This document shows positions 9,182 to 50,255 of a stretch of 64,000 nt of DNA, piece by piece; within the stretch, counting starts at the first letter, position 1, and every line of letters begins with the position of its first letter. The notes under the pieces were generated by a model. It saw only the letters and a program-made list of their open reading frames with translations, was not told the DNA's origin and searched no databases. This DNA is from Starkeya sp. ORNL1 (GTDB taxonomy: Bacteria > Pseudomonadota > Alphaproteobacteria > Rhizobiales > Xanthobacteraceae), in the NCBI RefSeq assembly GCF_012971745.1, contig NZ_CP048834.1, forward strand, positions 2,852,001 through 2,916,000, written 5' to 3'. Both the position numbers and the translations under genes were made by a program.

Positions 9182-9217
9182 GTCAGCCTCCCGGCGTCTG
9201 GTGGTGGCCGGTGCGGC

Positions 9218-27478: not shown

Positions 27479-27496
27479 AAATGGTGCCAGGGACGG
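27479..27496. repeat. Left attachment-site repeat (attL-like) of the 27.5-48.8 kb island
   Basis: The 18 bp AAATGGTGCCAGGGACGG recur exactly at 48832-48849 in the same orientation. They correspond, on the minus strand, to the end of a tRNA acceptor stem plus CCA. A tyrosine integrase gene lies beside the other copy. Together these are the usual marks of a tRNA-targeted integrative element. Confidence 0.75.
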
Positions 27497-27527
27497 AGTC
27501 GAACCGCCGACACTGCGATTTTCAGTC
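27482..27527 (-). other. 3' fragment of tRNA-Phe (anticodon loop to CCA)
   Basis: On the minus strand the sequence runs from an anticodon loop CTGAAAA (GAA anticodon at 27521-27523) through a GTGTC variable loop, T-arm GGCGG-TTCGACT-CCGTC and acceptor CCCTGGC-A-CCA. The 5' half (D-arm and the matching GCCAGGG) is absent: upstream sequence does not pair. It is therefore a displaced 3' end left by integration, not a functional tRNA. Confidence 0.75.
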
Positions 27528-28013
27528 ACCGCGCAATTGCAACAATACCAATACTGTAGCGCCCTCATTACATGGCAAACGCCTTGTAGTCGCCAACAGC
27601 TTAATCATGGAAATGGAAAACTTACATTCGCTACATTTAGGCTTGACGCGCAAGCATCTCCGTGATTTCGTTAAGTCAACAGGTCCCGCGCCGCACTGAG
27701 GTGCAAGAGGACGCGCGGCTTTTACAAGCCGTCGCTGAGCATAATGCTCTCCCGCTACCTCCGACCACTCGGGGGCGAGCGAGGAGAGCCATCTCCTCGC
27801 TCGATTTCATCACGAGCCGGGAGTGCCATCATCGAAATCTGTGAACCATATCCTTGTGCAAACCCGTTTGCACAGGCGCGACTTCCCTTTGCTGACTGAA
27901 GAAGCTTAGGGACAAACTAAAACTCCAAAACGTAGATCTGTATCGGCTGTGCGCGCCCAAGAAGCGCGCTTGCGCGCAGGCCAATTGTGCGTGCAGCCCT
28001 CAAAACAAGGCAC
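27528..28013. other. Left-end non-coding stretch of the island
   Basis: 486 bp of lower GC than the chromosome to the left, with no convincing gene. It holds the perfect palindrome at 27855-27874 and, at 27958-27980, a GCGC-rich hairpin just before the next gene. Confidence 0.4.
27855..27874. promoter_or_regulatory. 20-bp palindrome, operator-like
   Basis: TGTGCAAAC-CC-GTTTGCACA is a perfect 9-2-9 inverted repeat in a gene-free stretch 140 bp upstream of the hypothetical gene at 28014. Spacing fits a dimeric HTH repressor site. There is no T-run, so a terminator is unlikely. Confidence 0.5.
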
Positions 28014-30103: not shown

Positions 30104-30700
30104 ATGTTGATCGGATACATGCGCGTGTCGACGGCTGACGACCGGCAGTCCGTGGACCTCCAGCGCGATGCCCTCGTCGCCGCCGGCGTCGATGAACGGC
30201 ACCTCCACCATGACAAGGCATCGGGCGCCAAGGATGATCGCGTCGGCTTGCAGCACTGCCTGGCCTTCCTGCGGCCGGGCGATTGCCTCGTCGTCTGGAA
30301 GCTCGATCGGCTTGGTCGCTCGCTGGTGCACCTCCTCACCATTATCGAGGACCTCAAGCAGCGCGGCATTGCCTTTCGCTCGCTCACCGAACAGATGGAC
30401 ACCACCACCACGCCGCACGGCGAGCTGCTGTTTTCGATCTTCGGCGCCTTGGCGCAGTTCGAACGGGCACTGACGCGGGAGCGGGTAATAGCCGGCCTTG
30501 CCGCCGCCAAGCGCCGGGGCCGACGGGGCGGACGTCCGCGGGCCATCGATGACGAGAAACTGCAGCAGATGATCGCGGCCCTCGAGGCCGGCGCATCGAA
30601 AGCCAGCGTGTGCCGCAGCTTTGGTGTCGCGCGCTCGACCTTAAGCGGCACGCTGGGCCGAACAGCGACCCCGGCGGTGAAGGAAGGAGCGGCGCGATGA
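30104..30700 (+). CDS. Serine recombinase/resolvase
   Basis: 198 residues. The catalytic serine is in GYMRVSTADDRQSVDLQ (Ser about residue 9), with the arginines in VVWKLDRLGRSLVHL and the FGALAQFERALTRERV helix. A short C-terminal HTH (SKASVCRSFGVARSTLSGTL) follows a basic RGRRGGRPRA linker. The size fits Tn3-type resolvases and invertases. It probably belongs to a mobile module of the island. Its stop overlaps the next start (ATGA at 30697-30700). Confidence 0.93.
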   Translation: MLIGYMRVSTADDRQSVDLQRDALVAAGVDERHLHHDKASGAKDDRVGLQHCLAFLRPGDCLVVWKLDRLGRSLVHLLTIIEDLKQRGIAFRSLTEQMDTTTTPHGELLFSIFGALAQFERALTRERVIAGLAAAKRRGRRGGRPRAIDDEKLQQMIAALEAGASKASVCRSFGVARSTLSGTLGRTATPAVKEGAAR

Positions 30701-31738: not shown

Positions 31739-32833
31739 TCAGCTCTGCGACGAAGATTCCTTGCGGCAGAAAGCCGGCAGCGCGCCCTTTGCAGCCTTCT
31801 TCTCTTTCGAGCGCTCGACGATCTGCTCCAGGAAGTTGCCGGTGTCGGTCAGCTCGTACAGGGTCGCTTCGTCGAACTGTCCGGTCTGCTCAATATCGCG
31901 ACTCTCCTGGAATCGCCGCAAGGAGTCGCTGACGGTCGCAGCCTTGTCCTGCGAGGACTTCGTCGACTTGTCCGGCTTGTCCTGGGCGGGGAGAAAGCCA
32001 AGCGCGACGAGCTGGTCCTCCCCGGCAATCCGCCCGGGCGATGTTGGATCATCGAGACCCTTGTCGGCACTTTTATCCTGGGCGGACTTGTCGCCGGGCA
32101 GACGCACGAACCGCCGCGCCTGGGCAAGCCAGATACGGGCCTCGTTCAACCCGATCTTGCCGCCGTTCACACGGCGGCGAACCTCGATGAGGTCGTCGCG
32201 GGCGGCCGGAACGTTGATGTTGCGTGAGCTCCAATAGGAGACCGCGGCATAGAAGGCGACGGGCTGCGTTCGCGCGAGCTCGGGGTAGTCTTCAATCGTG
32301 GGCTTGAGGCCCAGCGCTCTGCCACGATCACGGAAGTTATCGCGACCGGTCAGCTGTATCAGCCCCGAGCCGCGAAAGTCCCAGCCGTCCGTTGGACACT
32401 CGTTGCCGAGACGATTGCCGTAGACGCGGTTGGCGATCAGCTGCGGCTTGGCAGCGGCGGCCTCCGCCTCCGCCTCCGTCTTGAAGTATTTCGGAAAGAT
32501 CTGGCGCAGGCGCTTTGGGGAGTAGTTCAGATTCTCCTCCATGTAACGGAAACCGCCGCTCTCGGTCGCAAGCTGCGCAAGGAAATGGTGGATCTCGTTG
32601 GGCGTGTCGATGCCGGCGGCCGCGGCTCGCGACCATTGCGCGATGATGGCCGCGCGGATCTCAGGCTTCGAACGCGGCGAGAATTGCTTCAGCATCTCGT
32701 CGGTGAAGGGCGCTGCCACCACCGACGGCGGCCCGACCGCCTTTTCGGATTTCTTCGTGCCCTGCGCCTCCGCCAAGCCCGCAGCCGAATACACCATCGT
32801 GGCCACAAGAGCCAGCTTCATCACCGTACGCAT
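31739..32833 (-). CDS. Exported GH19 chitinase/lysozyme-like enzyme
   Basis: 364 residues from ATG 32833, with AAGGAGGGG 6 bp upstream. A signal peptide (LALVATMVYSAAGLAEAQ) is followed by a GH19 domain: IHHFLAQLATESGGFRYMEE with candidate catalytic Glu91 and Glu99/100, then NRVYGNRLGNECPTDGWDF and GSGLIQLTGRDNFRDRG. Phage endolysins and chitinases share this fold, so peptidoglycan or chitin is the substrate. After it comes a DKSAQDK-type linker and a peptidoglycan-binding-like region (DQLVALGFLPAQD, TVSDSLRRFQES). It is the last gene of the nine-gene operon of exported proteins. Confidence 0.85.
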   Translation of the reverse strand: MRTVMKLALVATMVYSAAGLAEAQGTKKSEKAVGPPSVVAAPFTDEMLKQFSPRSKPEIRAAIIAQWSRAAAAGIDTPNEIHHFLAQLATESGGFRYMEENLNYSPKRLRQIFPKYFKTEAEAEAAAAKPQLIANRVYGNRLGNECPTDGWDFRGSGLIQLTGRDNFRDRGRALGLKPTIEDYPELARTQPVAFYAAVSYWSSRNINVPAARDDLIEVRRRVNGGKIGLNEARIWLAQARRFVRLPGDKSAQDKSADKGLDDPTSPGRIAGEDQLVALGFLPAQDKPDKSTKSSQDKAATVSDSLRRFQESRDIEQTGQFDEATLYELTDTGNFLEQIVERSKEKKAAKGALPAFCRKESSSQS

Positions 32834-32883
32834 CAAAACCCCTCCTTCCATGCCAAAGCCGTCGTCATGTTGGGTCTGCCGCC

Positions 32884-34119
32884 TCACTCCCCGAGTCCTG
32901 CGGCCTCGAGTTCCGCCTTGCGGCCGCCGAGGCAGGCGTCCTTTGGCAGGAAGGCGCCGTATTTCTGCAGGAACGACCAGAACATCGCCCGCGCATCGTA
33001 TTTGGAGAGATAGGCGCCGAGGGCCCCGTAGAGATCGCCGCAACGCAGCGCCGCGTCGCCCTCGCTGTAGCCCTTGCCGGCCTGCACCGTCTCGAGCATG
33101 GTGCGTGTGTTGCGGTATCGCTGCTCGCTCGACGCCGGAATGAGCTCGATGACCCGCACCTGCCTGCCGTCGGCGACGGCGACGCGCCGTTCGTCAAAGA
33201 TCTCCGTCAGCCCCATCCGGTCGAACTTCGGACTATCGAACTTCATCGCCGGCGCGATCACGGACGGCTGGGCCTCGATCGAAATCAGCACTGGCACCGT
33301 AAAGGGAGTCTGGTTGGCGTCCGTGAACGTGATGCCGGTGCGAATGGGCGTCGCGCCGGTCATAAAGACGACCTCCTCCTCATCGACCAGGCTCTTCTTG
33401 GTGGACCGCGCGTAAAGATCGTTGAGCAGACTCGTAATCGACTCGATCATCGGCAACGCTAGTGTCGGCAGCGGATAGTAGGTGGCCACAGCGCTGGCGC
33501 CGTAGGCCTTGGCCGCCTTCTTGATGAACTCGAAGTCGAGCGAGCGGTCCTCCTGCAGGGAGACTTCCACCGCAATCTTCAGCCGCTGGTTGGGCGCCTT
33601 GACGAGCATGCTGTCGACCAGCGTGCCTCGCCAGCTCGTCTTGTGCACCTCGCTCACGGTCTTCTCGATGAAGAAGAGCTGTTGCTGCTTCGTCCACTGG
33701 AAGGACAGCACTGGCTCCCTTGCGAGCAGCTTGCCGGCGCTGTCGGTGACCGTGATGTTGACGACATAGGTGCCGGCACTGTTGCCGAACCTCGACGGCA
33801 GCGACCTCGCCATCGCCTCGATCAAGAGCTTGAGGCGCTGCTTCTGCTGCGGCGTGCCGATCGAATAGCGCACGGAGCCGTAACCATCACCCTCGGCCAG
33901 TGGCACCGGGGCCGCCGCGGCCTTGTCCTGGGCCGACTTGTCGGTTGCCATCGGCGGCTGCAGCCGCTCGAATTTCTGGTTCAACAGGATCTGCTGCTTG
34001 CCCTTGATCTCAGGCTTGGCCCGCGGTGCATCCTCCCCGGGATCGATCTGCGCGCGCGCCTCGCACGCGAAGACGCAGAGAGCCAGACACACCACCCCAG
34101 TGGAAAGCGTAGATCTCAT
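32884..34119 (-). CDS. Exported hypothetical protein of the caspase operon
   Basis: 411 residues with a signal peptide (TGVVCLALCVFACEARA). No family recognised. After a charged linker with the motif DKSAQDKAA comes a mixed alpha/beta part: TYVVNITVTDSAGKLLA, LSFQWTKQQQLFFIEKTV, and IKIAVEVSLQEDRSLDFE-like strands. A C-terminal segment with paired cysteines near CGDLYGALGAYLSKYD and DACLGG follows. It lies 50 bp upstream of the GH19 gene and 54 bp downstream of the caspase gene, so it is co-transcribed. It could be a scaffold or a binding partner. Confidence 0.7.
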   Translation of the reverse strand: MRSTLSTGVVCLALCVFACEARAQIDPGEDAPRAKPEIKGKQQILLNQKFERLQPPMATDKSAQDKAAAAPVPLAEGDGYGSVRYSIGTPQQKQRLKLLIEAMARSLPSRFGNSAGTYVVNITVTDSAGKLLAREPVLSFQWTKQQQLFFIEKTVSEVHKTSWRGTLVDSMLVKAPNQRLKIAVEVSLQEDRSLDFEFIKKAAKAYGASAVATYYPLPTLALPMIESITSLLNDLYARSTKKSLVDEEEVVFMTGATPIRTGITFTDANQTPFTVPVLISIEAQPSVIAPAMKFDSPKFDRMGLTEIFDERRVAVADGRQVRVIELIPASSEQRYRNTRTMLETVQAGKGYSEGDAALRCGDLYGALGAYLSKYDARAMFWSFLQKYGAFLPKDACLGGRKAELEAAGLGE

Positions 34120-34173
34120 CGTTCGACCCCTCTGTCGGACCTGTGCCTGCGCACGTCAAGAACATGCGATCGC

Positions 34174-36147
34174 TCATTTCTCCCCGACCCCGAAGCAGCG
34201 CTTCGGAGATGCGGGGATCGACGCTGCGACCGGCGCCTCCGTCACCTGAAACGGCACGTCGAGCGTCTTCCAGAACGACCGTCCGTCCGGCGCCGCGCGC
34301 GGCCGCGCGCCAACGCCGTTCCACACCCGGGCGAACTCGTCCTCCAAAGAGGCCGTGCGCGCAGCGCGCGCGCCGTCGCTGGCGAGGAACGCAAAGCTCA
34401 GGTTCTGGGCCTGATCGGAAACGATGATCTTCCAGGCCGCGGCGCCCGCCTGCGCGCTGAGCTCCACCGGCTCGGTCGAGAGTTCCTGGTTGCGCCCGGC
34501 AGGACCCAGCGGACACCAGCCGACCGTGAAATTCGGGCGCAGCAGCAGCACGTCGATCCGCACCTTGCGCGGCTCGCGGCTTTCCACGAACAGCTGCAGC
34601 TTACTGCCCGCGGGAATCTTCGTCGCGGCGATATGGGCACCATCGATCAGCTTCGGCCCGGTCGGCGTCTCGACCAACAGGCGATAGCGCACCTGCGCCG
34701 CGACGCCCGCGCCGCGGCGCTTCCAGTCAACCAGGCGCATCCAGCGCGCGTAGTTGTTGAAGCGCACACTCATCTCGCTGCGCAAGAGCTCACTCTTGCC
34801 TGACGGGAAGCTGCCGCCCACCTCGCGGCCGTCCGCGGTCGCAAGCGTCCATTGGCCATTCTGGAGCGTGACCTTCAGCTCGGCAGCCCCCTCGCTGAGG
34901 TCGGCGAAGTTGCCGAGCCCGTCCACGATCGCCTTACGGTCGAACGGACTGATCTTGCCGCGCGGCGGAACCGCGACCCTGATCTTGCGTCCCGGGATCA
35001 CGTACTCGAATTCGACAGCGGCAAGCACCTCGCTCGTCAGCTGCCGGCCGTCGAGCACCTCCAGCTCGGCGCTGGTGGCGGTCAGGCTCGTCACCTTCGC
35101 CCGCGCCTCGAAATCGGGGCTGCTCACCCAAGGGACCCGGCCGTTGCCGAACAGCTTGAACACCGAGCCTTCAGTGACGCCGAGATCGGAACCCGCGCTC
35201 ATGGTGGCGCGATCGGCGGCAACGCGCTCGGCTTTGACCGAATTCGAGAACGGGCCTTCGCTATCGAAGATTGGCGCGTCGCGATTGCCGAACATGCGCG
35301 GCGTCTGCAGCGCCGCTGCTCTCGGATCGGGCTTCAGCGCCGCGGCAACGCGGTCCATTGCCTCGCCCCACCTGGCCGGCGGCGCGACCTTCTCGTCCGG
35401 CAGCAGCGCGTCGCGCAGCGCGGCCGTGAACACGCCCAGATGCCCGCGGCTAGTCAGGCTGCTTCGCGACGGCTCATGCGCTTCGCTGGCGGTCAGGATC
35501 GCAACCGCGCCGCCGCGCCCGGGAACGCCGCCGCTGCGCAGCGAGAAGACGCCGTCGCGATCGCCGCGCGACGGGGCACTGGCGGCGGGGATCGTCTTCG
35601 TTTCGTCGGCGATGCCAAGGCGGGCGCCGCCGCCCGAAAAGCAGCTGTCGAGGATGAACACGGCCGTGATACCCTTGCCGTTCAGCGCCTCGATCCAACC
35701 GTACATTTCGTCATCGACGATGTCGCGGGGGGGCTGGCCGCCAATCCGTCCGTCATAGGGCACGATCGTCTCGTCGTTCGACTCACCCTGCCCGTCGCTC
35801 TTCAATGCTGAGCCGTGGCCGCTGAAGTACAAGACTGCCAGCGAACCACCCGGCAGCGACAGCAGATGCCGCTTCACGGCGTCGATGATGCCCTGCCGCG
35901 TCGCCTCCGCGTCGGCAAGGACCTTCGTGTTGCCGTCGTTGAAGCCGTAGTAGGAAAGCATCTCCTGCATTAGCACCAGATCGTTCGGTGGGCCCTTCAG
36001 ATCGATGGAGTCCTTGCCCGGGACGACCGTCGCCGGATCGTACTTGCCGACCCCGACGAGGACGGCGTAGCGCTCGGCCGCACGGCTTGCGCCGGAGTGC
36101 AGCAGCAGCGCGGCGAGCAACAGGACAAAGCGGACTGCTCTCGACAT
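34174..36147 (-). CDS. Exported caspase-like protein
   Basis: 657 residues. The signal peptide is residues 1-24 (VLLLAALLLHSGASRAAE). A caspase (C14, p20-type) domain spans about 26-290: YAVLVGVGKYD, catalytic histidine in LYFSGHGS (His111) and catalytic cysteine in FILDSCFSGG (Cys169). Both residues are present, so activity is likely, unlike many pseudo-caspases. The rest (about 300-657) is beta-rich and unassigned, with PVELSAQAGAAAWKIIVSD near the end, possibly an effector-adaptor or C-terminal sandwich domain. It is 13 bp downstream of the propeller-caspase gene. Bacterial caspases cut after Arg/Lys or Asp; its specificity is unknown. Confidence 0.88.
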   Translation of the reverse strand: MSRAVRFVLLLAALLLHSGASRAAERYAVLVGVGKYDPATVVPGKDSIDLKGPPNDLVLMQEMLSYYGFNDGNTKVLADAEATRQGIIDAVKRHLLSLPGGSLAVLYFSGHGSALKSDGQGESNDETIVPYDGRIGGQPPRDIVDDEMYGWIEALNGKGITAVFILDSCFSGGGARLGIADETKTIPAASAPSRGDRDGVFSLRSGGVPGRGGAVAILTASEAHEPSRSSLTSRGHLGVFTAALRDALLPDEKVAPPARWGEAMDRVAAALKPDPRAAALQTPRMFGNRDAPIFDSEGPFSNSVKAERVAADRATMSAGSDLGVTEGSVFKLFGNGRVPWVSSPDFEARAKVTSLTATSAELEVLDGRQLTSEVLAAVEFEYVIPGRKIRVAVPPRGKISPFDRKAIVDGLGNFADLSEGAAELKVTLQNGQWTLATADGREVGGSFPSGKSELLRSEMSVRFNNYARWMRLVDWKRRGAGVAAQVRYRLLVETPTGPKLIDGAHIAATKIPAGSKLQLFVESREPRKVRIDVLLLRPNFTVGWCPLGPAGRNQELSTEPVELSAQAGAAAWKIIVSDQAQNLSFAFLASDGARAARTASLEDEFARVWNGVGARPRAAPDGRSFWKTLDVPFQVTEAPVAASIPASPKRCFGVGEK

Positions 36148-36160
36148 TGACGACGCCCCA

Positions 36161-39100
36161 TCAGTTCGGGAAGAACAGGCCGGGGAACTTCGATGACGTC
36201 GAGAACGTCATCGCATGCTGCTTGCCACAAATGTTTTTTACATCGGCTTTCAGTCGAAGTTCGATGGTGTCCAGTGAAATCCCGTTCTGCGCATCATCCA
36301 CGTTCTTACCGTTGAGGACTTCGAGCAATACGTGCGTAAATGCGCCACCGCCGTTCTTATCCTCGCCCGACGGCTCGCAGCTCGCGACATTCTTTGGGTT
36401 GCGCAAATCTTTTTCCGGCAGCTCGAATGCGGAAGCGCCATCGCCGGTGGCAAGAAACAACGTGGCATCGAACCGATACAAATCGGTAAAGTCAGGCACG
36501 GCTCTGTGCGCGCGAGCAGGGTTGACCTTGTCCGGGAAGACCCGCAGATCGCGGCATGCATCAACGAAAATAATCAGCGGAATCTCGGCATCGAAATCTG
36601 CCGCGCCGAGCCATTCGACGATTTTTGGAATCCCGATGGCCTTGCTGGGAGCATCCTTCACGTCGGTACCGTTCGGCATGAAGAACCAGTAATCGGAGTG
36701 AATCTCCTTCAGCGAGAACCCGTGCCCGGCAAAATACATCAACACAACGTCGCCCGCCTCTACATTCTCGGCGATTTTCTTAAATTCTCCCTGCATGAAG
36801 TCACGCAAGGTCTTATAGTCTGCGCTGGACAACGGGCTCGTTGTCTGCTTGCCGTTCTCCATGACAAGCGTCTTGCCTGGCTCGTTCTGCGGCGCGGTCA
36901 GCAGCGCAAAGCGAGCGACCTTGTAGAAACCTTGGTTCTTCCAGAAATCGAAGAAACGCTGGGCATCTTGATCTGCATATTTGAGGGATGAGTTACGGCT
37001 CCCGTAGTCGCTGATGCCGACCGCGACTCCCCAGATCCGCTTCTGCGGGCACGCGGCCGAATCCGGCCCGGCGTAGGTGAAGTATTGTCCCTCCCGTGCC
37101 CCTTCGAAGTTCACCTCGATCCGAAGGTTCTTGCCTTGATGGCGGAGGCATTCTGGTAGGTCGAACGATGCATCAATCAGCAAGCCGTCGCTCTGCAACC
37201 GGCGACCGTGCTCCTTTGCCGACTCCATTCGGCCGAACCCGTCGATGGCGATCGTCAGGGGTGAACGTTGAGAGGTCGCGTCCGAGCTGCTTGCACGAAT
37301 GCTCAGTCGCACATTGCCGTCGACGATCTTGTCGCCACCTATAATCGCCACCTGCAATTGCGGGCGGCCGGTGTCCGGCGCGACCTCGGCGGTCGTCACG
37401 TTGCGATTGGCTTGCGCGTCGACGAAGACCTTCTGCAGCTCATCCGGCTTGTGCCACTTCTCGTTAAAGCGGCTGAGGGGCTGCACGTCGATCCGCCACG
37501 ATCCGCCGCCCGTCGGGATCGACTGCACCCAGCCCGCGACTTGGCTGCCGCTCGTGAACGAATAGTCAAAGTAACCCTCCGCGGTCCAGGCGATCCAGCT
37601 GCTCAGGTCGGGACGCAGAAACGCGCTCATCACGTTCTGGCCGCTCGACATCCGGTACCATCGCAGGATGCCGTCCGCGTGGGCTGCAATGACGAACTTG
37701 CGATCGCCACTGACGGCTAGCTGATAGGCCTCGTTGCGGATCCGTATGCCGGGAAACGGAGTCTCGGCGATGGTCTTTCCGTTCCACACGTCCTGTTTGT
37801 CGCAGCGCGCATAAAGCAGGCGATGGGTCGTGCCGAGGACGATGTGCCATTGAGTCTCGCCCGATGCCGGATCGAGGAACTGGAACGTCAGCACGCGCTC
37901 GATCGGGCGAAGTCTGAGGAAGCCACCAAGGCTTGCTGTCAACTCAGCGCGTGCCGGGCCGTCGAGGCTGTCCGCATCCTTCGGGAAGGTGATGCCGAGA
38001 CATTGACGCATCTCCTTCGGCTTTTCGCCAAACTTGATCGGCCCGCTCCGATGTGGAGCCAGCGTCTTCAGCAATTCCGCTCGCGACGCGTCCTGATCCG
38101 GGTTTGTCACGCTGACGAACGATGCCGTACTCAACGGCGCCATCAGGTCAAACGCGACGTAGGGGCGCGGTTCGCCCAGAGGACGCAGCATGACGATGCT
38201 GCCGTCGGAATTCGTAACAAGCGCCCCGCGGCTGCCGTTGCGGATGTCGAATGTGGGCCCTTCGAAGAAGCGCGAAACGTGCGGTTGGGCGGGATAGGTC
38301 GACACGTTGCCGGAGGCATCGAAGACGATGAGCGAGGGATCCTGCGTCAGCGCCGCGACGCCGCCGCCAGGGATGGCGCGCAGGTCCGTGGCGACGTTGG
38401 TGCCGAGGCAATGGCGGCTGGGCGACGCGTCCGCGACCGCAGCCCACCGCACCATCATGTTCGCGTAAGGATGGAACCCGGAATCGAGGTAACGAAAGGT
38501 CCTGCAAGGCTGGCCGGCCGGGGGCTGCTGCACGAAGTTGCCGGCCGCGAAAATCGCATCACCGTTCCAGACGAGATGGGCGAAGTAACACACCTCCTCA
38601 CCCAATTGCTCGCCCGGCCTAAGCTTGAAGAGCGGCTGAGCGTTGATCCGGCGATCGGGACCGGTGGCGCGCATGGCCTCGAAATCATAGACATGAACTG
38701 CGCAGGACTCGTTGGCGTCCCTCTCCGTTTGGGCGAGATCGCGGCGCGAGATCGCGACGCGCTTGCCGTCCGGCGAGAAGCTGATCCCCGAGACGCGGCG
38801 CATATCCTGGCGGCCGTCCCTCGTATAGCCGTACGCGGCGACTTCGAAATTCCGGTCATAGAAGACAATGCCGCTGTCGCCGCCGATCACCAGACTGATC
38901 TCCGAATCTCCGTTCGGCGGAACGGCCACCCCGAAGCTGTGGCATTCGCTGCGATCACAATTGCTGAAGAATCCCGCCACAGGCTCCGGCAGCACGTCCT
39001 CGTCGGGCCTCAATGCGTCCGTGTCGATCGGATGGGTCGCTGGGGCACGAGCAGCATCGCGCAGCTTGGTGACGTCCCACACACGCGGCGGCTGTTCGTC

Positions 39101-39625
39101 GGCGAAAAGCGCTACCAGCAGCAGCCGGTCTGCGCTGTCGACCGTGAAGGCCAGCTTGAGTGGGCGCGATGGCAATTGGTCGATGCTGTAGAGGATGCGC
39201 TTGTTGTCGGACCGCTTGAAGAAATACACGCGTGCACTGTCGGCGACGTTTCGCTCGAGCGGCACGCCGAGCGCGATCAGATCACCCGACGGCGACAACG
39301 CAATCGGACGCTGCTTCTGCAGTTCCTCGTCGCGGATCGGCGCGGAGATCAGCACCTCGGTCTGGCCGTAGCGCGAGTTGAGATCGAAGGTCGAGACGCT
39401 GCCGTCCGCGGTCGATGCCAGGACAAAGCGCCCGTCCGGCGACACCGCCAACGTCGACGGCACGCTCGAGAGCGGCGCGGTGAGGCGGATCTCGCCGCGT
39501 GCACGATCCTCGCGGCCCGCCGGCTGCGCCTGGCAGGCCAGCGGCGGCAACGCACCAGCCGCCATAATGACGCCGACGGCGAGTGCGACGAGATGGCGTA
39601 GCCTCAGGACAGACCGCGCGTCCAT
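36161..39625 (-). CDS. Large exported protein: beta-propeller repeats fused to a caspase domain
   Basis: 1154 residues. The N-terminus (LVALAVGVIMAAGALPPLAC) is a signal peptide and perhaps a poor lipobox. Residues about 50-700 contain WD40-like blades (STLAVSPDGRFVLASTADG, PIALSPSGDLIALG, GISFSPDGKRVAISRRD, LAVSGDRKFVIAAHADGILR). A caspase domain occupies about 862-1154: IWGVAVGISDYG, catalytic histidine in LMYFAGHGFS (His968) and catalytic cysteine in FVDACRD (Cys1024). Propeller-caspase fusions are known in bacteria, usually as intracellular sensors. Here the export signal and the operon of exported partners suggest an envelope role. It is the largest gene of the set. Confidence 0.87.
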   Translation of the reverse strand: MDARSVLRLRHLVALAVGVIMAAGALPPLACQAQPAGREDRARGEIRLTAPLSSVPSTLAVSPDGRFVLASTADGSVSTFDLNSRYGQTEVLISAPIRDEELQKQRPIALSPSGDLIALGVPLERNVADSARVYFFKRSDNKRILYSIDQLPSRPLKLAFTVDSADRLLLVALFADEQPPRVWDVTKLRDAARAPATHPIDTDALRPDEDVLPEPVAGFFSNCDRSECHSFGVAVPPNGDSEISLVIGGDSGIVFYDRNFEVAAYGYTRDGRQDMRRVSGISFSPDGKRVAISRRDLAQTERDANESCAVHVYDFEAMRATGPDRRINAQPLFKLRPGEQLGEEVCYFAHLVWNGDAIFAAGNFVQQPPAGQPCRTFRYLDSGFHPYANMMVRWAAVADASPSRHCLGTNVATDLRAIPGGGVAALTQDPSLIVFDASGNVSTYPAQPHVSRFFEGPTFDIRNGSRGALVTNSDGSIVMLRPLGEPRPYVAFDLMAPLSTASFVSVTNPDQDASRAELLKTLAPHRSGPIKFGEKPKEMRQCLGITFPKDADSLDGPARAELTASLGGFLRLRPIERVLTFQFLDPASGETQWHIVLGTTHRLLYARCDKQDVWNGKTIAETPFPGIRIRNEAYQLAVSGDRKFVIAAHADGILRWYRMSSGQNVMSAFLRPDLSSWIAWTAEGYFDYSFTSGSQVAGWVQSIPTGGGSWRIDVQPLSRFNEKWHKPDELQKVFVDAQANRNVTTAEVAPDTGRPQLQVAIIGGDKIVDGNVRLSIRASSSDATSQRSPLTIAIDGFGRMESAKEHGRRLQSDGLLIDASFDLPECLRHQGKNLRIEVNFEGAREGQYFTYAGPDSAACPQKRIWGVAVGISDYGSRNSSLKYADQDAQRFFDFWKNQGFYKVARFALLTAPQNEPGKTLVMENGKQTTSPLSSADYKTLRDFMQGEFKKIAENVEAGDVVLMYFAGHGFSLKEIHSDYWFFMPNGTDVKDAPSKAIGIPKIVEWLGAADFDAEIPLIIFVDACRDLRVFPDKVNPARAHRAVPDFTDLYRFDATLFLATGDGASAFELPEKDLRNPKNVASCEPSGEDKNGGGAFTHVLLEVLNGKNVDDAQNGISLDTIELRLKADVKNICGKQHAMTFSTSSKFPGLFFPN

Positions 39626-39648
39626 TGTTCGGATTTCCCGTTGATCGT

Positions 39649-40233
39649 CTATCTTATCTGTTGCAATCCGAAAGGCGGCTGAGTCGGCGGCCTCCCCATC
39701 TGCTGCGATCCAAAAGGCGGCTGAGTCGGCGGCCTCCCCATCTGCTGCGATCCAAAAGGCGGCTGAGTCGGCGGCCTCCCCATCTGCTGCGATCCAAAAG
39801 GCGGCTGAGTCGGCGGCCCCAACGAGGGTGCCTGAGACGCCGCGAAAGGTGGCTGGCGCAACTGGTCCACGATGAGGGGGACGAGCGGATTCAGCGCGTC
39901 CACAGCAATCACCGGCTGCATCGGGCCGGTCGGCGCACTGGACATCGGCGGCGGCCGCTGCTCATCAGTACCAAATGGCGGCTGAGGCGGCGGCCGCGGC
40001 GAGGGTGCCGGAGACGCCGCGAATGGTGGCTGGCGCGGCTGCGTTGGGTCGGACGGCGCACTGGACATCGGCGGCGGCCGCTGCTCGTCAGTACCAAATG
40101 GCGGCTGCGCCGCGACCTCGCCCGGCCCCTGCCTAACGAGGTCACTTGGCTGCGTCCGCGATTGCGCTATCGCAGCAAACGGAGTGATCGTGACCAGCAG
40201 TAGCCCGGGCAGCGCGCGACAGTATATCATCAT
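39649..40233 (-). CDS. Exported proline-rich repeat protein
   Basis: About 194 residues from ATG 40233 (a GTG at 40257 overlaps the upstream stop). A signal peptide (ALPGLLLVTITPFAAIAQ) is followed by a low-complexity region built of repeats: GTDEQRPPPMSSAP occurs twice, RQPPFAAS twice, and QPPFGSQQMGRPPT about three and a half times at the C-terminus. No enzyme motif. Such chains often span the periplasm or bind partners. It sits between the 110-residue proline-rich gene and the propeller-caspase gene, 23 bp upstream of the latter. Confidence 0.7.
   Translation of the reverse strand: MMIYCRALPGLLLVTITPFAAIAQSRTQPSDLVRQGPGEVAAQPPFGTDEQRPPPMSSAPSDPTQPRQPPFAASPAPSPRPPPQPPFGTDEQRPPPMSSAPTGPMQPVIAVDALNPLVPLIVDQLRQPPFAASQAPSLGPPTQPPFGSQQMGRPPTQPPFGSQQMGRPPTQPPFGSQQMGRPPTQPPFGLQQIR
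39671..39818. repeat. 42-bp tandem repeat, about 3.5 copies, in frame
   Basis: Units starting at 39671, 39713, 39755 and (partial) 39797 have an exact 42-bp period and encode the 14-residue unit QPPFGSQQMGRPPT on the minus strand. The near identity of the units suggests recent expansion and copy-number variability. Confidence 0.9.
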
Positions 40234-40253
40234 GGTGCCTCTGCCTCCCGGCG

Positions 40254-40586
40254 TCACTGCCGCTTGAAAAGATTACGTTGCACCTCCATCAAACCGCCCT
40301 GCGGCAGCTGGCGAAGGCTATCGCGGAACGGCGCACTGCCCTTATCGAGCGTCATGTCGACGATCGGCGCTATCGGAGGTTCCTGCGTACCTATCGGAGG
40401 CTGTGGTGGTGCAGGGTCCGGCGCCGCCCTCAGCACAGGGTACAATGTTGCCTGTGGTGTGAGGTATGGTGGAGGCGGCGGTGCTTCAGTGGGGGAAATG
40501 GGTGGCTGGGCCGGCTGCGCGCGCGCCGGGGCGGCGATAAGGGTCGCCACGATGAGGAAGGCCGCTGGAGAAGTCTGAAAAATCAT
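40254..40586 (-). CDS. Small exported proline-rich protein
   Basis: 110 residues with signal peptide (AAFLIVATLIAAPARAQ) followed by a proline-rich middle (PTEAPPPPPYLTPQ, PPQPPIGTQEPPIAP) and a C-terminus LRQLPQGGLMEVQRNLFKRQ. No family recognised. It resembles the next protein in composition and is coupled to it: its stop overlaps a GTG of the downstream frame. Probably a structural or adaptor component of the same system. Confidence 0.65.
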   Translation of the reverse strand: MIFQTSPAAFLIVATLIAAPARAQPAQPPISPTEAPPPPPYLTPQATLYPVLRAAPDPAPPQPPIGTQEPPIAPIVDMTLDKGSAPFRDSLRQLPQGGLMEVQRNLFKRQ

Positions 40587-40621
40587 CCTCGAGATCCTTC
40601 CAAGCGATTAAGGCGGCACAG

Positions 40622-40861
40622 TTATTTATCCGTGTTCCTAGGTGGCGTTGGACCTGCATATCTTCGTAAGTCGTCTTCAACGACGATTGGGGAGGTGGAA
40701 GCCTTGACCGTATCCTGCAGCATCGGCGTAGTCTTTGCTTTTGGAGGGCTAGTTTCCTTCACTGCAAGTGCGCCTGCTGCGGCTGCCGCCGATATGTTCG
40801 GTGTCTTCAGCACGAAGACACGAAGGACGGTTGTATCCCGGTCCAATCTTGACACCGACAT
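40622..40861 (-). CDS. Small hypothetical protein of the caspase operon
   Basis: 79 residues in the 23-bp to 35-bp gaps between trypsin-like and proline-rich genes, same strand. It has an alanine-rich hydrophobic patch (NISAAAAAGALAV) but no clear signal peptide, and a charged tail. No strong ribosome site is visible. Coding status rests on position and length only. Confidence 0.4.
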   Translation of the reverse strand: MSVSRLDRDTTVLRVFVLKTPNISAAAAAGALAVKETSPPKAKTTPMLQDTVKASTSPIVVEDDLRRYAGPTPPRNTDK

Positions 40862-40884
40862 GTTAATTGCGGCGGCAGCGCCGC

Positions 40885-41892
40885 CTATTTCTTCAGAATA
40901 TGGGCGAACTCCGACGTCAATGTTACATCCTCCCTCCTACAACCATCGCCGGGGCATTTCTCCGAAAACGAACAGGTCAGGCCCGGAACGAAATCAGTTT
41001 CGCCGCGGACCAAAATGCCTTCCGCGAGCAACTGGCCTTGCTTCAGCCTGTCGCTGTTGAGGACCACCGAGCCCGAACTTCCGTGATAGGTATCGAGGTT
41101 CGCCGTCAGATATCTTTTGTGGATCTCGTGAACGTCGGCACCGCCGGCAATTTTGACCGGCAACCCCAGCGGATAGCCGACGACAGTCAGCGCGGTTCCT
41201 TTCCGCGGAGGCGATGTGGTCGTCTTCGTGCGGATATCGACCTGCGGGCCGTTGATGTCGCGATCGACCTCGACGATGCGCCAGTCGCTGTCGCCCGAAT
41301 ACTCACCTGCGATGATCTTGACGCATCGATAGATGCGCTCGCTCGGAATTCCCTTGTCCGGCGCGTCGTTCTCTTCCCTCATATGAAAGCCGAAGACGAA
41401 GGCGGTGTCACTGCATTGCTGGCGGGTCTTGATGCAATGACCGGCCGTCGCCATCCAGCGTTTTCCAACCTTAAACGCCGAGCAATTCCCCGGTAGTGGC
41501 TCGTCCCAAAAGCGCTCTGGAGCAAGACGATTGTTTGCCACCGCGTCCTCCGGCGAGCAGAGCTTTAGGGCGTCTGGGCGGGGTTGCAGGTACCACTTCG
41601 TCTTTTGTTCGTCCGCGCTCTTGAGTTGGCCGCGGGAGACGAGGACCGCCGTCGCCTGCGCCGCCTTGCGCTCATGCTCGGTCAGCACAGGATCGTAGAA
41701 ATTCCTGCGATCATCGCAGCCGTAGATTGGCTTGGCTTCGGTATCCTTCGCAGCCAAAGCCGCGTCGAACCGCCGCTTGAGGGTCGGCTCTAGCACATCG
41801 GGGCAACTCTGCGCCTGGGCCGCGAGCAGCGGCAACATGCACAACGCGGCACAGAGCAACGATAATTTAATGCAACCCGGACCTGGAAACAT
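40885..41892 (-). CDS. Exported trypsin-like serine protease
   Basis: 335 residues. The signal peptide is LSLLCAALCMLPLLAAQAQ. The catalytic triad is visible: histidine in MATAGHC (His152), aspartate in SGDSDWRIVEVD (Asp203) and serine in YHGSSGSVV (Ser273). Several cysteines suggest disulfides, in keeping with a periplasmic or secreted protein. An extra N-terminal region of about 100 residues precedes the protease domain and could be a pro-region. It is the second gene of the operon. A protease plus caspases in one operon suggests a cleavage cascade, which is inference. Confidence 0.85.
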   Translation of the reverse strand: MFPGPGCIKLSLLCAALCMLPLLAAQAQSCPDVLEPTLKRRFDAALAAKDTEAKPIYGCDDRRNFYDPVLTEHERKAAQATAVLVSRGQLKSADEQKTKWYLQPRPDALKLCSPEDAVANNRLAPERFWDEPLPGNCSAFKVGKRWMATAGHCIKTRQQCSDTAFVFGFHMREENDAPDKGIPSERIYRCVKIIAGEYSGDSDWRIVEVDRDINGPQVDIRTKTTTSPPRKGTALTVVGYPLGLPVKIAGGADVHEIHKRYLTANLDTYHGSSGSVVLNSDRLKQGQLLAEGILVRGETDFVPGLTCSFSEKCPGDGCRREDVTLTSEFAHILKK

Positions 41893-41972
41893 TTCATTCG
41901 CCCCTCAACCCATGCTTGCACACGCAACTTTTTCACGCAAGGCCACACTTCTTCGCCAGTTGCGAGCACCGC

Positions 41973-42878
41973 CTAGCGAAGCTCGAGACTGATCGGCAAG
42001 GACAGCGTCGCCTCCGCCTCGGTCGATGCACCGGCGACAGGCCGATGCGCGAGGACCTTCACGCCGGGCAGCTGTGCCTTCTTCGGCTTGGGCGCTTTCG
42101 CAGCGACCGTTGTCAAAGCTCCGAGCGACAGCGAAAAGGAGATCTTGTCTGCGTCGACCGCGATGCGCGACACCGCGAACGACTGTGGCTCGAGCTTGAG
42201 AAAGAACTTCCTGCCGGCGGCCGTCACCGGCAACGTGACCGGCCCCCACAGCTTCGCGATCTCCTTTTTGATGACATCGCAGGTGACATTCGCCTGGAGT
42301 TCGCTCCTCAGGAATTTGCTGGCGACGAATTCAGAAAAGCTCGGAATGGACTTCTCCACCTTGGAAGGCAGAGCCGCCTTCTCCGTGAAATTCACTGACG
42401 GTTCGCCGAACTTCAGGACCGGGCACCAGTCGGAACCGACGTCGAAAGCAAAGTCGATGGTCGCGTCGCCGCTCCGAGCCACCGGGAAGCCGCCGACGGT
42501 CGCGACCAGCTTGAACGGCGCCACGGCGCGCAACGGGAATTGCGTCTGACCGGAGGGTGCAAGCGTGACATTCCCCATCGTCAACGTGCCGTTGTAGCTG
42601 ACCAAGCCGGCGGCAGCTTTGCCCTTTGCCTGAAACCGATACTCGAACTGATTGATCAGTTGCGCGATCTTCTCGAACGGCAAGCTGACGTTGACGGCGA
42701 GCTCTGCCGCCTTGTGCGGAGCCGGCGCGGCGGCCTTGTCACCGGCCGGCGTCTCGGACTGTGATACGCCGCCCCGGGGTTTAACGAGGATCACCCCTTC
42801 GGCGCCATGGATCATAGACATGCCGGCGGCGATCACACAGGCAAGCACGCGCGGCCTCATCCAAACGAACGATGTCAT
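41973..42878 (-). CDS. Exported DUF4403-like protein, first gene of the operon
   Basis: 301 residues from ATG 42878 (AGGGGCC upstream); the open frame to 43187 is read-through. After a signal peptide (VLACVIAAGMSMIHG) comes an alanine/lysine linker (AGDKAAAPAPHKA) and a domain with the amphipathic pattern AVNVSLPFEKIAQLINQFEYRF, VAPFKLVATVGGFPVARSGD and ITYRFDV-like strands, suggestive of a lipid-binding-like DUF4403 fold. The family match is tentative. It heads the nine-gene minus-strand run, with 80 bp to the protease. Confidence 0.55.
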   Translation of the reverse strand: MTSFVWMRPRVLACVIAAGMSMIHGAEGVILVKPRGGVSQSETPAGDKAAAPAPHKAAELAVNVSLPFEKIAQLINQFEYRFQAKGKAAAGLVSYNGTLTMGNVTLAPSGQTQFPLRAVAPFKLVATVGGFPVARSGDATIDFAFDVGSDWCPVLKFGEPSVNFTEKAALPSKVEKSIPSFSEFVASKFLRSELQANVTCDVIKKEIAKLWGPVTLPVTAAGRKFFLKLEPQSFAVSRIAVDADKISFSLSLGALTTVAAKAPKPKKAQLPGVKVLAHRPVAGASTEAEATLSLPISLELR

Positions 42879-43740: not shown

Positions 43741-44560
43741 TTCTGACGTTAGGTGACCGACTCATAACTTCGCAGCCAGATGCGAATTGAAGCGAGCTGG
43801 ATTGAGGCGAGGAAATTGTCGTCTCGCTTGTCGTAGCGGGTGGCGACGGCCCTGAAGTGTTTGAGTTTGTTGAAGAAGCGCTCGACAGCGTTGCGTTGGC
43901 GGTAGAGCCAGGCGTTGAAGGCGAGGGTTTTGACCCTGTTGGGCATGGCGCGAACATTGGCCCATGCGCCGCGCCCAGCCATCTCGTCTCGCAAGGCGTC
44001 GCTGTCATAGGCCCTGTCGGCGAGAAGGATGTTTCCCGGCTCGACCGCGTCCAGCATGTCGGTGGCCGAGCGCCCGTCGTGAGCTTGGCCCTCGGTGAGC
44101 TTCAGGCGGATCGGGCGGCCTTCGGCGTCGACGAGCGCGTGGATCTTGGTGGTCAGGCCGCCGCGCGAGCGACCCATGCAACGGGATCGCTCGTCTTTTT
44201 TTGGCCGTTGGCGGCATGCTGGTGAACGCGGATCGACGAGGCGTCGATCATCTGGATATCGCCATCGTAAGCAGCTGATACGGCTTTCAGAATGCGCGCC
44301 CAGTGGCCGGCCTTGCGCCACCGGTTGAAGCGGTTCACGCAGGTCGTATGAGGGCCATAGCGCGAAGGGATATCGGCCCATGGCGCCCCGGTGCGCAGGC
44401 GCCAGAAGATGCCGTTCAGAACGCGACGGTCATCCACGCGTGCAACCCCGCGCACCTTCGTCGGCAGAAGTGGCTCGATCACCGACCACTCGAAATCCGT
44501 CAGGTCAAATCGCGCCATCTCAACCTCCAAGGCTGAGATCAATGAATCAGAACACCGAGC
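43738..44560. mobile_element. IS5-family insertion sequence
   Basis: About 820 bp containing only a two-phase transposase. Imperfect inverted ends are visible: TTCTGA at 43741 on the left and its complement TCAGAA at 44547-44552 on the right, each with further partial matches. Exact ends and the target duplication could not be fixed by eye. It sits between the caspase operon and the orphan trypsin-like gene. Confidence 0.7.
43749..44518 (-). CDS. IS5-family transposase made by frameshifting
   Basis: The first phase starts at ATG 44518 (GGAGG 7 bp upstream) with MARFDLTDFEWSVIEPLLP and GIFWRLRTGAPWADIPSRYGP. It ends after MIDASSIRVHQHAANGQKK. The second phase carries on with GRSRGGLTTKIHALVDAEG, LADRAYDSDAL and NAVERFFNKLKHFRAVATRYDK, which holds the DDE residues (Asp in IDASS, Asp in ADRAYD, Glu in VERFF). 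The joint is a run of seven A on the minus strand (44196-44202), a classical slippery site. The element therefore looks intact rather than broken. Confidence 0.82.
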
Positions 44561-44622
44561 CGCAGGGAATCCCTTTATGGGTATGTGACCTAGTGCGGCG
44601 CGGCCAAAACGGAAGGTCGGTC

Positions 44623-45951
44623 ATGGCTTGTGTTCCTAGAGCGCTTGTCAGAAGCGCGATACTCTCCACTGTCTCCGTTACTCTAATTCTAGGAAATGCC
44701 GCGAGAGCTGACGACCTTAAGTCAGCCTCCAACTATGCCAGAGAAGAAAATAAGCGCGTTCTCACGGAGATCGTCGCTCAAGCGCAAGAAACGCTCAGGA
44801 CGCTTGATAGACCCGAAGAGGTTGACGATCAAAGAGCACAACGAAATAGGCGAGAACGGACTCAGCCCCGCATAGTGAACGGTCGCGGCACGATAGACTA
44901 TCCTGCAACAGGCGTTGTCTTGAAGGGAGCCGAAGCGCGCACATCGACTGCTTGGTGTTCGGGTACGCTGATCGCACCCGACAAATTCCTTACAGCAGCT
45001 CATTGTATCGCGAAGGACCCTCGACCCGATCAATACCGAATATTCCTACATAGCGCCGGATTTATAAGTGTAAAGACCATCGATTGGCAGAAGGACCTGT
45101 ATCGCTTTCCCAAAGCAGACATCGCTGTACTCACACTAGCTGCTCCTGTGCTAAGAATAACACTCGAATCGATCCTTGGGGAAGAACGACCAATTCATGG
45201 TACATTAGGCACTATCGTCGGTTTCGGGCGCACCGGCGGCTTCAACGAGGATTATGGTGTCAAGCGCGAAGGTTTTATCGAGACCGCGCCCTGTAGAGAA
45301 ACACAGAGTGACATTCCTCTCGTCTGTTGGAATTTCTCAGCCGAGGTTCAGAACGGTACAATAAGATCAAACACCTGCAATGCGGATTCTGGAGGCCCAC
45401 TATTTGTATACGAAGTCACAGGCGGTCGCCAGCTACGCAAAATCGCGGGGGTTACCTCCGGAGGTAGCGCAGACGATTGCTTGCTCGGCGACCAAAGCTA
45501 TGACGTCGACGTGGTCGAGTATGCCAAATGGATCTCAGAAACAGCTCAGTTGGTCGGCGAGCCCGCGCCGGCAGGTCCAGGACCGGCGCTCGTGACGGAA
45601 CGCGACGTCGTGGGGCAAACATCTACTCTGACCCAAGCCCGTCCGGAAATCTCATACCCGTTCCAGGTCCGTGAGGGCATCGGAACTCTGCTGGTCGCCA
45701 TGAACGGCGACGATAACGGCAGAGGACGTAACAACTTCGACCTTTACGTGATCCAAGTGAGTGAGGGCACGGATCGCGTCGTCTGCAGCGAAGAGGGATC
45801 GGGGCAATTTGGCTTTTGCCGGCTGGATGATCCGGCGCCCCGAAACCATTTCTGCGAGATTACGGTGAAGACCCGCAGATCTTCATCGCGGAACCCGCTC
45901 AACGCGTCGAACAACGCGCCGAGGCGGCGATTCCGTAAGTTCCGAAGATAG
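44623..45951 (+). CDS. Exported trypsin-like serine protease with a pre-peptidase-type C-terminus
   Basis: 442 residues from ATG 44623 with GGAAGG 6 bp upstream. A signal peptide (ILSTVSVTLILGNAARA) is followed by a coiled, charged pro-region and an S1 domain. The triad is His127 (TAAHC), Asp166 (KADIAVLTL) and Ser256 (NADSGGPL). Residues about 330-410 (YPFQVREGIGTLLVAMNGDD, NNFDLYVIQVSEGTDRV) resemble the bacterial pre-peptidase C-terminal beta-sandwich. The last 30 residues are Arg/Ser-rich and unlike the rest, so the 3' end may be shifted or truncated. Its lower GC marks it as foreign. The IS5 element lies about 60 bp upstream and may supply or interrupt its promoter. Confidence 0.82.
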   Translation: MACVPRALVRSAILSTVSVTLILGNAARADDLKSASNYAREENKRVLTEIVAQAQETLRTLDRPEEVDDQRAQRNRRERTQPRIVNGRGTIDYPATGVVLKGAEARTSTAWCSGTLIAPDKFLTAAHCIAKDPRPDQYRIFLHSAGFISVKTIDWQKDLYRFPKADIAVLTLAAPVLRITLESILGEERPIHGTLGTIVGFGRTGGFNEDYGVKREGFIETAPCRETQSDIPLVCWNFSAEVQNGTIRSNTCNADSGGPLFVYEVTGGRQLRKIAGVTSGGSADDCLLGDQSYDVDVVEYAKWISETAQLVGEPAPAGPGPALVTERDVVGQTSTLTQARPEISYPFQVREGIGTLLVAMNGDDNGRGRNNFDLYVIQVSEGTDRVVCSEEGSGQFGFCRLDDPAPRNHFCEITVKTRRSSSRNPLNASNNAPRRRFRKFRR

Positions 45952-47497: not shown

Positions 47498-47760
47498 TGG
47501 GCATGCACCGAAGCCCCCCTCGACTTCTGACGTCCCGAGAGGCGGCGGACTATTGCGGAGTTAGCGTCGCTAGGTTCCAGGCCGCCTGCCCGACAGAACC
47601 GGTCTCACTGGGGAGCGGCCCTCGCCACCACAGATACGATGTGCGCGCCATCGACCGCTGGCTCGACGGACTCCAACACCCGGAGTCATCCCAGCATTCA
47701 AACTCATGGCTCGGATTGGTGGAGGCCTGCCGTGTTTCGCGGTCGCGTCAAGGGGATTAA
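47497..47760 (+). CDS. AlpA/excisionase-like HTH protein
   Basis: 87 residues; the MerR-type HTH is LLTSREAADYCGVSVARFQAA, followed by RHHRYDVRAIDRWLDGL, the form used by AlpA and excisionase proteins. Its end overlaps the integrase start by 29 bp, so it is translated with the integrase and probably acts as recombination directionality factor. Confidence 0.75.
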   Translation: MGMHRSPPRLLTSREAADYCGVSVARFQAACPTEPVSLGSGPRHHRYDVRAIDRWLDGLQHPESSQHSNSWLGLVEACRVSRSRQGD

Positions 47761-48799
47761 GCGGGTCCAGGCCAAAGGCCGCGTATATTATTACCATCGC
47801 CGCACAAAGACGCGCATTAAGGCCGCCTTTGGCAGTCCTGAGTTCATCCTTGAGGTGGCGCGTCTGGAGGCTGGCTCCCAGCCAACAGCCCGTCCCGGCA
47901 CGTTGGGCATGCTAATTGACGCATACCGCAAGTCGCCATTTTGGCACGACCTTAAACCCGCGACTCGCATAACCTACGATCGCGCCTTCGAGGTCCTGGC
48001 GCCCTTGCGAGGCATGCCGCTCGTTGAATTTAGAGCGAGTTGGGTCGCGGCTCTTCGTGACGAAGTGAACGACAAGCGAGGACGCTGGATGGCCAAGAAT
48101 GTTCGCGCCGTACTGTCGATCATTGCGGAGTTTGCCCGTGAAAAGGAGTGGCTTAGCGACAATCCGGTCCGGCGAGTTCGTGGACTTCGTCGCGACCAGC
48201 AGAAGCCGCGCCTCAATCGTGGGTGGAAGGAGCAGGAGTGCAGAACGGTAATTGAGGCTGCGCCCGACTACCTCCGACCTGCAATTGCCCTCGCAATGTT
48301 CGCGGGGCTTCGGAAGACGGATGTGCTCACCGTTCGCAAGGATGCGATATCGGACGGTATCCTACGAATGCTAACGTCCAAGAGAGGGATTGAAGTAGCG
48401 ATTCCGGTGCATCCGCAACTGGCTCAGATCCTGGCAAATGCGCCTCGCCACTCTGCCCCCACGGTCGTCGCAAATTCTCGCGGCGAGTCATGGACCGCGA
48501 GTGGCTTCAACTCGACCTTCGGAAAGTTCATCGGCAGGCTTGAGCAGTCTGGTCGGGTGGCCTCTGGGCTCACTATGCACGGTCTGCGGCACACGGTTGG
48601 GCAGCGCTTGCGGGAAGCCGGAGCCGACCTTGACGACATCCGCCGCATCCTTGGACAGCGGACCCTTAGCATGGCGCAGCACTATTCGGACGCGGCGGAC
48701 CGAACGGCCGAGGCTCGACTCACAGTCGCGAAGCTCGACATTTTTGGGGAGAAGCGGGCCGAGAAAATGGAAAACCCGGCCTCGGAACTGGAAAACTGA
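47732..48799 (+). CDS. Tyrosine integrase of the island
   Basis: 355 residues from GTG 47732, supported by GGAGG 6 bp upstream; the longer frame to 47639 overlaps the HTH gene. A SAM-like core-binding domain precedes the catalytic domain, whose residues are Arg in MFAGLRKTDVL, His-x-x-Arg in MHGLRHTVGQRL, and Tyr in AQHYSDAADRT. It stops 33 bp before the 18-bp att core, the usual place for the integrase of a tRNA-targeted element. Confidence 0.93.
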   Translation: MFRGRVKGIKRVQAKGRVYYYHRRTKTRIKAAFGSPEFILEVARLEAGSQPTARPGTLGMLIDAYRKSPFWHDLKPATRITYDRAFEVLAPLRGMPLVEFRASWVAALRDEVNDKRGRWMAKNVRAVLSIIAEFAREKEWLSDNPVRRVRGLRRDQQKPRLNRGWKEQECRTVIEAAPDYLRPAIALAMFAGLRKTDVLTVRKDAISDGILRMLTSKRGIEVAIPVHPQLAQILANAPRHSAPTVVANSRGESWTASGFNSTFGKFIGRLEQSGRVASGLTMHGLRHTVGQRLREAGADLDDIRRILGQRTLSMAQHYSDAADRTAEARLTVAKLDIFGEKRAEKMENPASELEN

Positions 48800-48831: not shown

Positions 48832-48849
48832 AAATGGTGCCAGGGACGG
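48832..48849. repeat. Right attachment-site repeat (attR- or attP-like)
   Basis: An exact second copy of AAATGGTGCCAGGGACGG, same orientation as the copy at 27479, 33 bp after the integrase stop. Beyond the core the tRNA similarity ends at once (next bases CATCC), so no intact tRNA-Phe is formed here. Confidence 0.75.
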
Positions 48850-49845: not shown

Positions 49846-50255
49846 TTCAGGGCTCCGTAACGCGCGAGGATTTCGAGGTTTCTGGCAACCAAATCGATGA
49901 TTCTCGGGCCATCTCGTCCGAGATTGCAGGTCGCCAAGGCGGCCAGGACTTCCGCATGGGCTCGCGGAAGGCCGCCTTCGAATTCCGCTACGGCCGATCG
50001 CTCGCAAAAAACGTCGATTTGAGCAGCCGCTCCAGCGACAATTGCGACATTGCGACAGGTGACGCTATCTGCTTGATAATGAACACGTCTCTCCGAGGAG
50101 AGTTCTGCAGCGCCGTCCGCGGAGGTTGCGACGCTTGGCGGGCAGTGGCCGGGTTCGTTCTTGACCCAAGGACGCGGCCGCGCAAACTCGGGCGCACCCG
50201 GCGTGTCAACATTCTGGGTTGTACCGCCCGAAAATACGAAGGGGATATATTCCAT
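49842..50255 (-). CDS. Hypothetical protein between primase and terminase genes
   Basis: 137 residues from ATG 50255, which overlaps the stop of the primase gene (TGATG). Its own stop overlaps the terminase GTG start. No domain recognised; the C-terminal half (AEVLAALATCNLGRDGPRII) is helical. The double coupling shows that it belongs to the same operon. Confidence 0.55.
   Translation of the reverse strand: MEYIPFVFSGGTTQNVDTPGAPEFARPRPWVKNEPGHCPPSVATSADGAAELSSERRVHYQADSVTCRNVAIVAGAAAQIDVFCERSAVAEFEGGLPRAHAEVLAALATCNLGRDGPRIIDLVARNLEILARYGALK

Follow-up and report, generated by a model that had tools for sequence, protein, structure and literature searches.

We know of no assigned function for most bacterial caspases. 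Canu (PMC12799240) is a defence system in which a caspase resembling MALT1 activates a proenzyme, and the same source describes nucleases of Hachiman and AVAST that are activated by trypsin proteases. Four fusions of a metacaspase with Amidase_2, from Beta-, Gamma- and Deltaproteobacteria and from Bacteroidetes, were reported in 2012 with a suggested role in cell death (PMC3501461). Here, we examine a nine-gene cluster at positions 31739-42878 of a 64,000-nucleotide stretch of the Starkeya sp. ORNL1 genome (NZ_CP048834.1, 2,852,001 to 2,916,000; hereafter the window). We tentatively read this cluster as what may quite possibly be an exported, protease-gated cell-wall hydrolase module, likely on an integrative element; such a module would be the envelope counterpart of proenzyme systems like Canu, and of the accounts considered we judge this one to have the best support. 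This reading rests on anatomy, signal-like N-termini, active-site motifs, mobile context and recurrence in other loci.

As stated in the original prediction, the cluster consists of nine open reading frames (ORFs) on one strand with gaps of 13-80 bp. They run on the minus strand from 42878 down to 31739, separated by 80, 23, 35, 20, 23, 13, 54 and 50 bp. Protein lengths are in amino acids (aa).

41973-42878, minus strand: g1, DUF4403 protein, 301 aa, N-terminal signal or anchor (PF14356, E = 4e-9)
40885-41892, minus strand: g2, trypsin-like serine protease, 335 aa, signal-like N-terminus (Trypsin_2, E = 1.8e-8)
40622-40861, minus strand: g3, small ORF, 79 aa, doubtful gene, without clear signal peptide
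40254-40586, minus strand: g4, Pro-rich protein, 110 aa, 21.8% Pro, signal-like N-terminus
39649-40233, minus strand: g5, Pro-rich repeat protein, 194 aa, 25.3% Pro, signal-like N-terminus
36161-39625, minus strand: g6, WD40-type propeller with C-terminal caspase, 1154 aa, signal-like N-terminus (Peptidase_C14, E = 4.7e-11)
34174-36147, minus strand: g7, caspase, 657 aa, signal-like N-terminus (Peptidase_C14, E = 2.3e-15)
32884-34119, minus strand: g8, protein without family assignment, 411 aa, signal-like N-terminus
31739-32833, minus strand: g9, GH19-type wall hydrolase with C-terminal PG_binding_1-like domain, 364 aa, signal-like N-terminus

The families that had been claimed for these proteins were recovered (DUF4403, Trypsin_2, two Peptidase_C14 and GH19-type endolysin matches), and the motifs of the caspase dyads and of the protease triad are in place. 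The Pfam scan covered eight of the nine proteins (all except g3). In it, g1 scored 36 bits for DUF4403 against a gathering cut-off of 28.3, and g6 showed WD40-type repeats besides Peptidase_C14. The DUF4403 family is predicted to adopt a TULIP, BPI-like lipid-binding fold (PMC6791001); because g1 is short and matches only positions 3-244 of the 425 in the family, it probably holds only part of this two-domain TULIP. The His-Cys dyads are H968/C1024 in g6 and H111/C169 in g7, and g2 carries AGHC at 150, DSDW at 201 and GSSGS at 271. For g9, the GH19 and PG_binding_1 scores of Pfam stay below their cut-offs; the protein matches endolysins in PHROG (E = 5.7e-60) and the PDB (best E = 2.2e-31), and its GH19-type domain contains ESGG and EEN motifs, the Glu residues of which we take to be catalytic. 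No Pfam family was matched by g8, which has two conserved cysteines at its C-terminus. The gene for g5 holds 42-bp tandem repeats, and g3 may be no gene at all because its guanine-plus-cytosine content by codon position is flat (0.55/0.53/0.53). In PADLOC-DB 2.0.0, the six proteins scanned (g1, g2 and g6-g9) matched nothing beyond generic profiles for caspases and weak ones for proteases. Promoter-like sites (one, on the plus strand; mean of 2.0 in shuffles) and terminator-like sites (10; mean of 10.7) were at chance level.

Eight signal peptides had been predicted. Using a home-made rule (not SignalP) based on hydrophobic core, charge and small residues, which was fixed after these N-termini had been viewed, we found a signal-like N-terminus in eight of the nine cluster genes versus 6 of the 34 further genes called in the window, for which any start within the first 80 codons was permitted (Fisher p = 1.6e-4). 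With a stricter cleavage motif, g1 is also left without a site, which gives seven of nine. To put the caspases in context, we used control loci of Rhizobiales, in 39 of which (out of 40) a script located the caspase motif. Under a looser rule with every in-frame start tried, 35 of these 39 control caspases have a signal-like start, so caspase export is not special, and we rejected exported caspases as the novelty itself. A lysozyme-type neighbour was seen in the 40 control loci as one doubtful 55-aa match, possibly a binding domain only. Judged by such predictions, caspase export is ordinary in Rhizobiales and a wall-hydrolase neighbour is not. The claim that an envelope caspase with a lysozyme-like enzyme is new is not supported as it stood: exported-looking caspases are usual in this order, and fusions of a metacaspase with an amidase had already been reported (PMC3501461).

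The other loci that we inspected support a recurrent link, at the level of predicted proteins: proteases that look exported (caspase, trypsin, subtilisin) accompany peptidoglycan hydrolases and may even be fused to them within a single polypeptide. The protein g8 served as marker for this wider set of loci. It has relatives at three loci besides the window, two of which encode a wall hydrolase by profile: L006 combines GH25, S1 trypsin, S8 subtilisin and g8, and L010, from the genus of the window, contains GH25, a caspase-GH25 fusion, a 252-aa protein, a GH75-like protein, VanY and a distant g8. A search of plasmid records with the caspase-GH25 fusion gave 213 with a match, and in 4 of these the match spans 80% or more of the query; among 297 genomes of the order, no match listed extends into the caspase half. 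We viewed five fusion-type plasmid loci from Rhizobium/Sinorhizobium (L011-L014 and L017). In all five, as in L010, a GH25 gene is followed by the caspase-GH25 fusion, which is split in two in L014. Relatives of the 252-aa protein occur in L013 (43%), as a piece in L014 and as a weak match in L017, which also encodes a relative of the GH75-like protein. The D and DxE residues are kept in all six stand-alone GH25 partners. In the fused GH25 half, DxE is lost in L010 (1333-3198), L011 (8893-10740) and L017 (near 8001-9731) and kept in L012, L013 and L014. The GH25 proteins, like g9, match phage endolysin families.

A query with g7 matched 131 plasmid records, 46 of them from Pseudosulfitobacter, and two of these loci were viewed. 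L015, on a Rhizobium plasmid and reached with no lysozyme query, contains a GH24 lysozyme flanked by caspases, four of them annotated; one carries a WD40 propeller by profile, one aligns with g7 (27% over 433 residues) and three give weak, partial matches to g6. At 73-16195 of L016, on a Pseudosulfitobacter plasmid, caspases, trypsin-like proteases, a patatin and a CHAT protein are clustered.

These features allow comparison with the known systems. The likeness to Canu (PMC12799240) lies in variable loci near transposases, a MALT1-like caspase, uncharacterised genes and a downstream degradative effector, for which g7, g8 and g9 would stand here. The caspase domain of g7 resembles metacaspases and MALT1. 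In Canu, a C-terminal Ig-like (immunoglobulin-like) fold follows the caspase; the structure model of g7 shows a beta-rich C-terminal half that may or may not correspond to it, the listed alignments lying mostly over residues 23-343. Unlike the gated MBL-type nuclease that is the effector of Canu, the candidate effector here is a wall hydrolase, in a set of proteins with signal-like N-termini, and the Pfam scan of eight proteins recognised neither a nuclease nor an MBL family. By analogy, the module is similar to Canu in its apparent logic of caspase, partner and effector, yet it is not Canu, given the lack of a recognised nuclease and proteins that appear to be exported. Hachiman and AVAST share the principle that a protease turns on a proenzyme effector, but there the protease is fused to defence-associated enzymes and the effector cuts DNA (PMC12799240). 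The metacaspase-Amidase_2 proteins (PMC3501461) likewise tie a caspase domain to a peptidoglycan hydrolase; the present loci differ by GH25 fusions (rhizobial plasmids and the related genome G017), by GH19 and GH24 as separate genes and by g8. Both domains lie in one polypeptide in L010 and, by tblastn over the two halves, in the plasmid loci, whereas the window has them as separate genes. In the open-licence literature, we found no description of an exported caspase-lysozyme system.

Around the cluster, we found the following features.

27483-27527, minus strand: left end, remnant of the 3' half of a tRNA-Phe, overlapping an 18-bp repeat copy at 27479-27496
30104-30700: resolvase, between the repeats
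43749-44381: DDE transposase, between the repeats
47639-48799, plus strand: tyrosine integrase (PF00589, E = 1.7e-13), ending beside the right-hand repeat
48832-48849: right end, second 18-bp repeat copy

Given the integrase, the 18-bp repeats at a tRNA-Phe remnant, the resolvase and the transposase, an integrative element of about 21 kb between the repeats probably carries the cluster as cargo. The repeat resembles the 3' end of the intact tRNA-Phe of the host without matching it exactly (G000:C1:2984168-2984243, about 105 kb from the remnant), and its 14-base core occurs at the two repeat sites only in the 140 kb searched. A tRNA-Asn called by ARAGORN at 27483-27577 was rejected as not real; it is the remnant of the tRNA-Phe 3' half. 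Beyond the transposase lies a second trypsin-like S1 protease (44527-45951, plus strand), to which a later start would, by eye, add a signal peptide. Near the integrase, a small terminase subunit and a Prim-Pol/DUF3987 gene (49075-52771) have the look of a phage satellite or another element. A prophage-like stretch (tail, terminase and integrase-like genes, by eye) extends, in window numbering, over approximately 85000-132000 of this genome and ends at the intact tRNA-Phe.

Among 121 genomes of relatives, g6 as a marker was found in the own genome only and g8 in two (the own and G017, at 21% identity), and we therefore rejected a cluster common to near relatives. Profiles of g8 found 2 of 397 genomes of the order (the own and G237), 1 of 385 of the class (the own) and 3 of 198 of the family (the own, G017 and G888), and a single locus, L006, on genome contigs. 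The g7 profile found 1 of 150 genomes (the own, E = 1e-30); g6 at E = 1e-10 found 14 of 150 including the own, the remainder being partial matches of 26-33% identity. Scoring of the best 7997 candidates added 24 g8 homologues, the sources of which bear the tags jgi, lgn or ena. For g7, there were 20 more matches, 8 of them 44-80% identical. Two metagenomic contigs, with listed sizes of 7740 and 31013 bases (each cluster of homologues being listed by its longest contig alone), would each hold one g7 and one g8 homologue by size agreement, and because the homologues coincide in listed size twice, we infer that g7 and g8 are linked there.

The proposed module would act in the periplasm or outside the cell. 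Sensing, for which the g6 propeller, the g1 TULIP domain and the Pro-rich proteins are candidates, would lead to activation of the trypsin-like enzyme and/or the caspases. These proteases would then cut Lys-rich linkers in g8, in the GH19 enzyme or in both, and the freed GH19 enzyme would digest peptidoglycan. Metacaspases typically cleave after Lys or Arg. A weak lead to such linkers is DK[AS]A, a motif picked after the sequences had been viewed, with 6 occurrences in the 3605 residues of the nine proteins (in g1, g8 and g9) versus 0 in 12425 control residues. A 7-mer (DKSAQDK) is common to g8 and g9, and such sharing arose in 7 of 5000 shuffles. Near the N-terminus, DK[AS]A is retained in two listed g8 homologues (P0002, P0003) and found in no other listed g9 homologue. 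Because the cluster lies on mobile DNA, the likeliest use would be conflict, either lysis of the own cell on envelope breach (by phage or competitor) or cutting of a neighbour's wall. A fuller version, which we hold to be unlikely, is an envelope immune-like cascade on Rhizobiales mobile DNA: TULIP and WD40 domains would sense the breach, the trypsin-like enzyme and two caspases would relay it by cleavage, perhaps at DKSAQDK-type linkers, and an exchangeable GH19, GH24 or GH25 enzyme would lyse the cell, with a fused and sometimes degenerate GH25 tethering the caspase to the wall beside an active GH25 partner.

Several observations weigh against a protease-gated module. In searches with g6, g7 or g8, no other genome showed the order of DUF4403, trypsin, Pro-rich, propeller-caspase, caspase and GH19 genes, the conservation of which the original prediction had proposed as a check, and other loci hold only part of the set. 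In L006, the signal peptide of the S8 protein is borderline; in L010, VanY and the GH75-like protein are without a signal-like start, which the other proteins of this locus have. In L009, the third g8 locus, g8 has no clear signal peptide and adjoins a 516-aa protein that looks lysin-like by eye only and gave no family match. The GH25 plasmid loci came from a GH25-containing query and so show the existence of the module but not its frequency; the block in L015 is confined to one plasmid record, and the annotation of L016 contains no lysozyme. The 40 control loci were taken from the best-scoring listed matches in 36 genomes and probed with 15 hydrolase queries only (GH19/24/25/VanY). The structure model of g8 is poor (mean pLDDT, a per-residue confidence score, of 69.8), homologues of g9 are common (3562 matches), and we infer the cleavage, trigger, target and lysis outcome of the module.

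Part of this evidence would suit a chance neighbourhood, in which an ordinary exported caspase cluster has a GH19 gene as its neighbour on a mosaic island. Caspases are common in Rhizobiales (PF00656 in 88 of 150 genomes) and usually look exported, the full gene order is so far unique, L015 is isolated, and none of the 120 GH19 homologues listed out of 3562 has a listed contig size matching g7 or g8 homologues. We nevertheless consider chance improbable, with similar pairings in loci reached by g8 or g7 queries (L006, L010, L015) and in fusions, and one doubtful match in the control loci. A secreted scavenging or bacteriolytic set, in which independent exported proteases and a lysozyme digest cells or debris with no cascade, would explain why most cluster proteins look exported, the phage endolysin matches of the GH19 and GH25 proteins and the second S1 gene. 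The fusion of caspase and GH25, together with a closely spaced GH25 partner gene, argues instead for coupling, and a mobile island is an unusual site for plain scavenging; we regard this explanation as rather unlikely. The hydrolase and proteases might also serve to remodel the wall during growth, when stress damage is repaired or when DNA is transferred. VanY and the GH75-like protein of L010 would fit this role, as would the location of several of the plasmid loci on plasmids typed conjugative. This, too, seems to us quite unlikely: no transfer gene was found among 18 different window proteins scanned with Pfam, and close g6 and g8 homologues are missing from 120 relatives, so the cluster does not serve a core function.

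For the exported caspases of these bacteria, the recurrent tie to wall hydrolases offers a concrete candidate substrate and output. A protease-gated wall hydrolase module of this kind would take effector systems that are switched on by proteases beyond the cytoplasm and into the envelope.

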